Shown in pieces: positions 19,719 through 23,207 of a stretch of 64,000 nucleotides of DNA. A program made the translations under genes and the position numbers. The stretch covers positions 1 through 64,000 of the forward strand of contig JAQCLE010000006.1 in NCBI GenBank assembly GCA_027592755.1. The letters run 5' to 3'. Source of the DNA: Bacteroidota bacterium (GTDB taxonomy: Bacteria > Bacteroidota > Bacteroidia > Cytophagales > Cyclobacteriaceae). Below the pieces are notes generated by a model. The model was not told the DNA's origin. It made no database searches and worked only from the letters and a program-made list of their open reading frames with translations. Within the stretch, counting starts at the first letter, position 1. Every line of letters starts with the position of its first letter.

Positions 19719-22622
19719 TCAGACACCTACTTTGATTTCCTTTTCTTCGAACTCCTCGACAGGAATGCAGCTACAGAATAAATTTCTATCGCCGAAAGCA
19801 CTATCAATGCGGCCGACGGACGGCCAGAATTTGTTATGCTTCACCTCTAAAGAAGGGAAAGCGGCCTTTTCTCGTGAATACGGTTTATCCCAAATGTCAC
19901 TACACACAACCCTTTGTGTGTGCGGTGCGTTTTTCAGTACATTGTTTTCACGGGCATAAATACCATCTTCGATCTCCCTGATCTCGTTTCTAATAGATAT
20001 CAATGCTTCGCAAAATTTATTCAGTTCTGACAGGGATTCACTTTCGGTAGGCTCTATCATCAAGGTACCTGCTACTGGGAACGATACTGTTGGGGCATGA
20101 TATCCGTAATCCATTAATCTCTTGGCGATATCTTCCACCTCAACGCCAACGTCTTTGAACATACGACAATCAACGATCATTTCATGTGCACATCTGCCAT
20201 GTTGGCCCACATATAGTATTGGATAATGGGGCTTAAGACGTTCCATAATATAGTTTGCATTCAATATTGCAAGTTTGGTCGCATTAGTCAAACCAATGGA
20301 GCCCATCATGGCTATGTACGCATAGGAAATAGTCAATATACTGGCACTTCCCCAAGGGGCTGATGAAATTGACTCAATGGCGGAATTGCTGTCTGACTTA
20401 ATTATAGGATTTCCCGGCAAGAAAGGTATTAGGTGTTTTTTAACGGCTATTGGCCCCATTCCGGGTCCTCCTCCGCCGTGTGGGATACAAAATGTTTTAT
20501 GCAGATTTAGATGACATACGTCAGCTCCTATTTTGGCAGGACTAGTAAGACCAACCTGGGCATTCATATTGGCCCCATCCATGTATACCTGACCTCCATT
20601 GTCATGTATAATTTGACAGATATCTACTATGCCCTCTTCAAAAACTCCATGGGTTGAAGGATACGTAACCATTAATGCCGAGAGGTGGTCTTTGTTTTCC
20701 TGGGCTTTAGTGCGAAGGTCTTCAATGTTAATATTTCCTTTGTCATCACATCCAACGATTACAACTTTCATCCCCGTAATGACAGCGCTTGCAGGGTTTG
20801 TGCCATGTGCTGAAGATGGTATTAACGCTACATTGCGGTGACCTTGTTCAATACTTTTTTGATAAGCTCTGATTACCATTAAACCTGCGAACTCACCCTG
20901 AGCGCCACTATTAGGTTGAAGGGAAATGCCTTCAAATCCGGTAATTTCTCCTAACCATCTCTGAAGGTTGTTGAGTACTTCAGAATATCCAGTCGTCTGA
21001 TCTTGTGGTGTAAATGGGTGCATTTGAGCAAACTCAGGCCAACTAAGTGGTATCATTTCAGAAGTTGCATTGAGTTTCATGGTGCAAGATCCCAATGATA
21101 TCATTGAATGAACAAGCGAAAGATCTTTGTTCTCAAGGCGTTTGATATACCGCAGCATTTCATGTTCTGAATGATAGGAATTAAATACAGGATGGGTTAG
21201 GTATGGGGTAGTTCTCTGAAGATTTTCCAATAATTGAACTTCAATTTCCTCATGGTTGATTTTTATGGTCTCTTTTGAATAGATTCCTTCTTTTAACACC
21301 TGAAGTATAATTTTAACATCCTCGGGCATCGTGGTTTCATCTAATGTGATGCCGATTTTGTCTTTATCGAAAAACCTGAAGTTTATTCCATTTGCCTCGG
21401 CTATTTTCTTTATAGAGAGAGGATCAATTTTCTCGGGAACAACAATTTTAAGGGTATCAAAGAATTGTTCATTAAGTTGACTGAATCCCAATTTCTTCAA
21501 TTCAGTATTCAAAATGTTAGCCAATCTATTGATGTTCAAGGCTATATTTCTGAGACCTTTTGGCCCGTGATATACGGCATACATTCCCGCCATGACAGCC
21601 AACAAGACCTGGGCAGTACAAATATTTGATGTCGCCCGTTCCCGTTTTATATGTTGCTCCCTTGTTTGCAGGGCCATTCTATAAGCTTTGTTGCCCTGCT
21701 GATCTACAGATACGCCAATTATTCTTCCTGGAATTTGTCGTTTATACTCTTCGCGAGTGGCAAAAAAAGCAGCATGAGGACCGCCGTAGCCCATCGGAAC
21801 ACCAAATCTTTGGGTATTACCAATGACAACGTCGACTCCAAATTCACCAGGAGGTTTTAGTAGTGTTAGACTTAATAGGTCAGTAGCCACGGCTATAGCC
21901 AATTCGTTCTGTTTGACTTTGCTAAACAGCTCAGAGTAGTCGATTATTTCTCCATTACTATTAGGGTATTGCACAAATATTCCGAAAGCATCATCTAATA
22001 TTTCCAGTGGTTTGGTGAGATCGGTGATCTGAACCTCTATTCCAAGCGGTTCAGATCTTATTTTCAGAACAGAGAGTGTTTGTGGAAAAATATTGCAATC
22101 AACAATAAACCGCGATGCATCTTTTTTAAACTTTGGTTTTGAATGGAAAAGCATGACCATTGCCTCGGCAGCAGCGGTTCCTTCATCAAGTAATGATGCA
22201 TTGGCTATTTCCATGCCGGTTAGATCAGTTACCATGGTCTGGAAATTGATCAGTGCTTCTAAACGACCTTGTGCAATTTCTGCCTGATAAGGTGTATAAG
22301 CAGTATACCAACCAGGATTTTCAAGAATGTTTCTTTGAATAATAGCAGGGACAATACAATTATGATATCCCAGGCCTATATAGGATTGTAGAACTTTGTT
22401 TTTTGAAGCCAGTTCCTTGAATTTATTAATGAATTGAAATTCACTTAAGGGACTTGGAAGATTTAACGCATTCTCTAACCGAATTTTTAAGGGGACAGTT
22501 TGGTCAATAAGATCATCAAGAGTTGCGCATTGAATAACTTCTAGCATGTGATTTATATCACCCTGGGTTGCGCTATTGTGCCTTGATTCAAAGGTTCTTG
22601 CTTGAGGAAATCCTGTGTTCAT
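19719..22622 (-). CDS. gcvP: Glycine dehydrogenase (decarboxylating), P-protein
   Basis: A 967-residue fused P-protein of the glycine cleavage system; it decarboxylates glycine and passes the aminomethyl group to GcvH. The N-terminal half ([32 protein letters not shown]) and C-terminal half ([36 protein letters not shown] with the PLP lysine) are both complete. Length is normal for the single-chain form. No glycine riboswitch was recognised in its short leader. Confidence 0.97.
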
Positions 22623-22666
22623 TGTTAAAATAAGAATGCAGTTTGGAGGCGTAAAATTACGGAGGG

Positions 22667-22674
22667 CAAAATTA
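22667..22674 (-). promoter_or_regulatory. TAnnTTTG promoter -7 box for gcvP
   Basis: TAATTTTG on the reverse strand, 44 bp before the gcvP ATG. The predicted leader is about 41 nt. Confidence 0.45.
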
Positions 22675-22732
22675 AATAATAAGCCATAAATGCCCTATTG
22701 CATTGATCAACAAGATTACAGAATGGGGGGTA

Positions 22733-22745
22733 TTATCTGAGATAA
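22733..22745. promoter_or_regulatory. Perfect palindrome TTATCTGAGATAA
   Basis: A 6-1-6 perfect inverted repeat about 58 bp upstream of the gcvP -7 box. It has the size and symmetry of a repressor operator, but no cognate regulator is known. Confidence 0.3.
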
Positions 22746-22754
22746 AATGTAATA

Positions 22755-22790
22755 AAGATTCTTGAGGGGGACGTGCCCCCACAAGATCTT
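22755..22790. repeat. Strong orphan hairpin between gcvP and topA
   Basis: AAGAT-T-CTTG-A-GGGGG, loop ACGTG, then CCCCC-A-CAAG-ATCTT. It forms about 14 bp of stem with one bulge and one mismatch. The strand then reads TTTTCAACC on the plus side, and CTTTATTACATTTT on the minus side. Neither flanking gene ends here: both start away from it. It is either the end of an unannotated transcript, part of a structured RNA, or a repeat element. Confidence 0.6.
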
Positions 22791-23057
22791 TTCAACCAGC
22801 TATGGAAAGAAAGACTGTTACATCTTCCTATTACTAATATATATACTATTTCGACTAATGCTCGTTTATTTTAGACGAACACCTATTTTTTTTCGACAAA
22901 CAAGGGATAATGTTCGATAAGTAATTTGAATAGATATTAATGTACATACATGTATTGATGTGACTATAGCTTTTAGGCATCATTTCAGAATAGAGTTATA
23001 ACTCCATGATCCATAGAAGTATGAGTAAAATAAACAATTGAAAATTCTCTAAAATTA

Positions 23058-23166
23058 GGAACGCGATAATGCAACAGGCTTGAAATGATATTTGTAAGTG
23101 GCAGCATACTTTTGGAAGCTTGAAGGAGAGCACTTCGGTGAAGATTCAAGCAAAGTTCCCTTTTTT
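23058..23166 (+). ncRNA. Candidate structured RNA or topA leader attenuator
   Basis: A forward segment bounded by GGAAC (23058-23062) and GTTCC (23155-23159), followed by six T (23161-23166). Inside, GCTTGAA occurs twice (23078-23084 and 23118-23124), and a single TTCAAGC (23145-23151) can pair with either copy, giving two exclusive folds. The 3' hairpin has CAC-TTCG-GTG, a UUCG tetraloop, at its tip. No gene ends upstream on this strand, so the RNA must start inside 22623-23110. It could be a small RNA or the topA leader. I could not match it to SRP, 6S, tmRNA or RNase P RNA. Confidence 0.45.
23114..23166 (+). terminator. Intrinsic terminator-like hairpin before topA
   Basis: The stem GGAA-GCTTGAA pairs with TTCAAGC-(AAAG)-TTCC, contains an inner CAC-TTCG-GTG hairpin and is followed by TTTTTT. 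The topA ATG lies 41 bp after the T-run, so topA transcription from upstream would have to read through it. Confidence 0.5.
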
Positions 23167-23207
23167 AATTTTATTTGCCCCTCATTCCTGTATTTCAAAA
23201 AATCATT

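Follow-up and report, generated by a model that had tools for sequence, protein, structure and literature searches.

The gap between gcvP and topA

The divergent genes gcvP (minus strand, 19719-22622) and topA (plus strand, from 23208) enclose a gap at 22623-23207 of the window, i.e. of the whole 64,000-nucleotide stretch analysed, and the question raised by this locus is whether the gap encodes an RNA and, if so, on which strand. The source genome (G000) is 4.2 Mb in size and 98% complete. Both gene calls were backed by Pfam (GDC-P, E 5e-192; Topoisom_bac, E 6.5e-117), in agreement with a sequence-only reading of this DNA, which had the flanking genes starting outward from the gap. The same reading held that the gap conceals an unannotated RNA, and this was borne out, as a conserved minus-strand element with promoter and terminator signals was found there. 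Judged from sequence comparison, the gap very probably encodes an RNA of about 78 nt on the minus strand, opposite to the strand that had been proposed. Known families did not account for it: neither the window nor 20 loci holding divergent members matched Rfam 15 at the gathering threshold, permissive thresholds returned eukaryotic families only (E 0.5-8, i.e. noise), and a search for tRNA and tmRNA found none. The features considered are as follows.

23114-23166, plus strand: terminator-like hairpin of the sequence-only reading, judged from its z and the lack of a counterpart in relatives to be ordinary sequence outside the RNA
22752-22829, minus strand: predicted small RNA gene, 78 nt, 5′ end near 22829 and 3′ end near 22752 (conservation at unrelated loci, covariation, orientation statistics)
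22834-22841, minus strand: putative -7 promoter box TATATTAG, one mismatch to the published consensus TAnnTTTG
22808-22829, minus strand: predicted 5′ hairpin AGGAAGAU-GUAACA-GUCUUUCU
22790-22808, minus strand: conserved core TTTCCATAGCTGGTTGAAA, which may serve as a seed or binding module (near-invariant columns, exact 16-mer across the order)
22754-22791, minus strand: predicted intrinsic terminator, hairpin plus short U-tract (folding z, covariation)

The earlier proposal was a forward-strand small RNA, or a long topA leader, ending at the hairpin at 23114-23166. A hairpin followed by T6 can be drawn on the plus strand, with the T-run starting 9 nt past the main stem, but its identity as a terminator was not upheld: plus-strand 23107-23170 folded at -13.1 kcal/mol with z = -0.36, 64 of 200 shuffles being equally good, a terminator scan found none at this position, and the region upstream of topA in 20 relatives held no counterpart. 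The argument for a forward transcript that has to start within the gap leaned on this weak feature, and the orientation counts for the conserved element, given below, point to the reverse strand. As for a topA leader, excess folding and conservation were both lacking, and the element adjoins genes for M28 peptidase, dihydroorotase, DEAD-helicase or gcvP, rather than topA, in those relatives that were examined. A forward transcript ending at this hairpin is therefore extremely unlikely.

On the minus strand, the G/C-rich hairpin of about 14 bp noticed earlier at 22755-22790 proved genuine, since 22748-22795 folded at -19.7 kcal/mol with z = -4.1 and none of 200 shuffles was equally good; the longer segment 22748-22832 had a folding z of -3.6. 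A stand-alone small RNA had thus been rightly suspected, but its strand and anatomy had been misjudged, the G/C-rich hairpin being the predicted terminator of an RNA running on the minus strand from about 22829 to 22752. The RNA ends were placed from the positions of promoter and terminator, and in the predicted fold the 5′ hairpin is followed by the exposed core UUUCCAUAGCUGGUUGAAA and then by the terminator. Hairpins of unrelated sequence occupy the 5′ part in the window's subclass and in several others, and some members have none. With CUUUAUU, the copy in the window has a short U-tract; a strict U-tract test excluded many RNAs of this subclass.

The -7 box consensus of Bacteroidota is TAnnTTTG (PMC6847099, PMC9723704). 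The RNA in the window is probably transcribed from a promoter of this sigma-ABfr type, with its -7 box at 22841-22834, where relatives show TATATTTG or TACATTTG. The mismatch in the window affects a T that hardly varies, and nothing clearly resembling a -33 box was seen upstream of this copy, so that it may be weakly expressed.

Conservation, orientation and covariation of the element

When the gap was used as a query against 98 relatives, two main kinds of matches were obtained, one to the start of topA (query about 607-661) and the other covering 22777-22841 at loci unrelated to topA. The latter segment is found again elsewhere in the genomes of many relatives, with identity up to 94%, and the aligned matches have in common a hairpin and, in plus-strand reading, GATCTTTTCAACCAGCTATGGAAAGAAAGA. 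Read on the minus strand, the order is a -7 box (TAnnTTTG), a fixed core, and a G/C hairpin with a U-run; in divergent members the core is followed directly by very different terminators, e.g. CCGGAGACATATGTTTCCGGTTCTTTTTTT.

Orientation was counted over 124 core matches, of which a few are chance hits in coding sequence and many come from related genomes, so that they are not independent events. Terminators lay on the same strand as the core in 91 cases versus 18 on the opposite strand, strong terminators in 69 versus 3, and TAnnTTTG boxes in 44 versus 3. The RNA was assigned to the reverse strand because this strand-specific evidence points there.

A covariance model (R1), built from ten sequences comprising the window RNA and relatives, matched 47 places in the collected loci. 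Two-sided changes were present in all nine modelled pairs of the terminator helix, with 93% of cells paired, and over the whole modelled structure 94% of cells pair, compared with 37-62% when the partner was slid, related genomes being included in these figures. Compensatory changes in relatives, which the sequence-only reading had suggested looking for, thus keep the stem. The upstream helix of R1 (GUCUUUC with GAAAAGAU) is a choice of RNAalifold and was not relied on. At the level of sequence comparison, these results establish a conserved RNA, its strand, its terminator and the existence of paralogs.

In relatives, the element lies between a gene for an M28-like peptidase on one side and one for a DEAD-box helicase or dihydroorotase on the other, or, alternatively, gcvP is paired with the helicase, dihydroorotase or, in the window, topA; we take these gene names from reading the translations. 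A genome of the same genus (G001) has topA without the arrangement seen in the window. These neighbourhoods bear on whether the minus-strand hairpin could be a cis-acting leader or attenuator controlling read-through into gcvP. The element in the window is on the same strand as gcvP, 130 nt upstream of its start, and it also adjoins gcvP at two other loci (L013 and L029); however, in most relatives it is located elsewhere, often after the DEAD-helicase gene and facing the M28 peptidase gene, paralogs occur at unrelated loci, and neither a glycine riboswitch nor any other Rfam match was found. With the element upstream of gcvP at three loci and most loci lacking this arrangement, a gcvP riboswitch or attenuator was rejected as quite improbable.

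Copies, subclasses and distribution

In the genome of the window, the element occupies three intergenic sites, and a terminator lies on the same strand at each, as follows.

C172, minus strand: copy in the window
C34:25374, minus strand: second copy, terminator with T7
C45:34074, plus strand: third copy, terminator with T8

In this genome, 57 places differ from the 15-mer core at no more than two positions; all of the 28 inspected, except the three intergenic copies, lie within ORFs of at least 113 aa. One core match on contig C82 (L031) was rejected as a copy, being a chance occurrence inside an ORF.

Among Cytophagales carriers, the copy number ranged from 1 to 10 per genome. Ten exact matches to AACCAGCTATGGAAA were found in G110, nine of them from a second subclass (TTTTCCATAGCTGGTTCTTAATGA), and five exact core matches in G016, while G075 had three tandem copies and G013 and G388 tandem pairs. 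The nine second-subclass copies of G110 (L246-L254) have a fixed 5′ end, GTGAGTATCTATTTTCCATAGCTGGTTCTTAATGA, and lie alongside a single copy of the window's subclass, a FopS-like expansion within one genome. It was also observed that tandem copies at L068, L079, L091 and L186 are spaced by about 110-390 bp and have their own terminator each; a terminator is likewise present in the copy at L279.

Several dispersed copies per genome, in tandem in some, would also be expected of a mobile or REP-like repeat without RNA function. Such a repeat is very improbable here, as the copy number is low (1-10), paralogs have only the core in common and differ in their terminators, promoter and terminator signals are strand-specific and accompanied by compensatory changes, and the window's subclass recurs between the same few neighbour genes in different genera.

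Within the bacterial family of the source genome, 37 of 196 genomes were hit by model R1, and the hits lay in several different gene neighbourhoods. Across the order, 72 of 291 genomes, from 42 of 116 genera, contain the exact core 16-mer YCATAGCTGGTTGARA, and a reversed-pattern control gave 0 in all. In a phylum sample of 395, the 16-mer had six matches besides G000, all inside long ORFs; outside the order this amounts to six matches in 380 genomes. When 84,980 species were scanned with a 19-mer, 43 stretches were returned, mostly from Cytophagales or from MAGs so labelled, the few scattered others being without a strong terminator. A tally allowing two mismatches (157/291) was set aside in favour of the exact one as inflated, because the TTTTCATNGCNGGRTGAAA type that is frequent elsewhere in the phylum sits in coding sequence, which in translation we presume to be trpD. 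The actual share of carriers is higher than the exact tally, since there are subclasses with altered cores. Near-core matches in other orders (L159, L162-L170) fall in a conserved coding sequence resembling trpD and form a trap for searches by pattern alone.

Neither the open-access literature nor Rfam 15 yielded a relevant description of the core or of Cytophagales sRNAs, and this is apparently an undescribed, multi-copy RNA family of the order Cytophagales. Its almost fixed core, present in at least a quarter of the order's sampled genomes, allows it to be annotated at once; the predicted strand, start and end are available, and some carriers are in culture, e.g. Reichenbachiella agariperforans DSM 26134 and Ekhidna lutea DSM 19307.

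Possible mode of action

To our knowledge, the regulatory RNAs of Bacteroidota are little known outside Bacteroides and Flavobacterium. The hallmark of trans-acting sRNAs is a set of paralogous RNAs of about 65-90 nt that each have a promoter and a terminator of their own and expose one conserved core. We therefore infer transcription, action in trans and targeting of start codons, and 22829-22752 (minus strand) is best read, with somewhat better than balanced confidence, as the gene of a FopS-like trans-acting sRNA for which start-codon pairing is the most likely mechanism; action in trans via base pairing is likewise fairly probable, whereas pairing specifically at start codons is a tentative proposal by analogy. 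Transcription from a sigma-ABfr-type promoter would yield an RNA of about 78 nt, in which the 5′ hairpin and the terminator would leave the core exposed. The start-codon region of mRNAs would then be bound by the core, whose complement CCAGCUAUGGAAA contains AUG (within CUAUGRAA), and the pairing would block translation initiation in the manner of FopS. Start-codon pairing was ranked first because of this AUG and because the seed of the FopS sRNAs of B. thetaiotaomicron pairs beside the susC start codon and blocks translation (PMC11697453).

The FopS and GibS sRNAs of Bacteroides thetaiotaomicron (PMC11697453, PMC7366714) are, like the Cytophagales family, paralogous and short (about 65-70 nt for FopS), with a terminator at the 3′ end and a conserved single-stranded seed; they have their own sigma-ABfr-type promoters, as is probable for the Cytophagales RNAs. 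Several paralogs per genome, a feature of FopS, also occur here, with three in G000 and ten exact core matches in G110, and the TAnnTTTG promoter of FopS is enriched in the Cytophagales set, although the copy in the window departs from it as described above. The stretch UUUYCAUAG is common to the FopS seed and the Cytophagales core, but the FopS R1′ consensus (GTGTTTTTCATAGTATTAGATTTAAGGTTAACAAA; PMC11697453) is otherwise not found and the remaining seed is unlike (CAUAGUAUUAGAUUUAAGG against CAUAGCUGGUUGAAA); the nine-base similarity may be a coincidence. FopS has been described in Bacteroidaceae, in contrast to the present family in Cytophagales, and is bound by the RRM-1 protein RbpB, whereas searches for RRM_1 (RbpB-type) proteins found none in G000 and G001. 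They were found in 30 of the 59 genomes searched; as the search of G000 gave none, an RbpB-type partner is not general. Rfp18 of Flavobacterium psychrophilum (excerpts of PMC9723704) is comparable in being described as conserved, intergenic and from the same phylum, and targets in trans have been suggested for it; these excerpts place its pairing region in the third stem-loop and mention no paralog family. If the family does act like FopS, blocking of start codons by paralogous sRNAs would be a phylum-wide theme, of ancient or repeated origin.

Alternatively, the core (GCUGGUUGA) might dock an RNA-binding protein that is titrated by the RNA, in the manner of CsrB/RsmY. It is conserved over 16-19 nt, exceeding most seeds, it occurs joined to a wide range of terminators and 5′ parts without relation to one another, and the repeated exposed binding motif of these sponges is possibly echoed in some members, in that a second GCUGGUU lies 40-44 nt upstream at four loci (L072, L080, L111 and L143), apparently within the same RNA, which suggests that the motif itself is bound. 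In contrast to CsrB and RsmY, the RNAs are short and mostly carry a single core, there is no candidate protein, and neither CsrA nor Hfq was found in 19 genomes, G000 included; a sponge is thus unlikely. A broader and still rather doubtful idea, slightly less so than the sponge, is that the near-fixed core of 16-19 nt, placed on unrelated terminators and 5′ hairpins and sometimes twice per RNA, is an order-wide binding module. Its partner would be either a protein that binds RNA or a motif common to start codons, and the outcome a post-transcriptional network specific to this order, in bacteria for which searches for Hfq and CsrA gave nothing.

Regarding the preferred pairing at start codons, some matches to the core complement do sit at starts (L222, L226/L227, L242 and L276), in a context that is commonly A-rich anyway, and are kept as candidate sites without bearing on the mechanism. 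It was also noticed that in two genomes of one genus (L226 and L227), AACCAGTTATGAAAA is located at the start codon of apparently orthologous secreted proteins, a possible conserved target.
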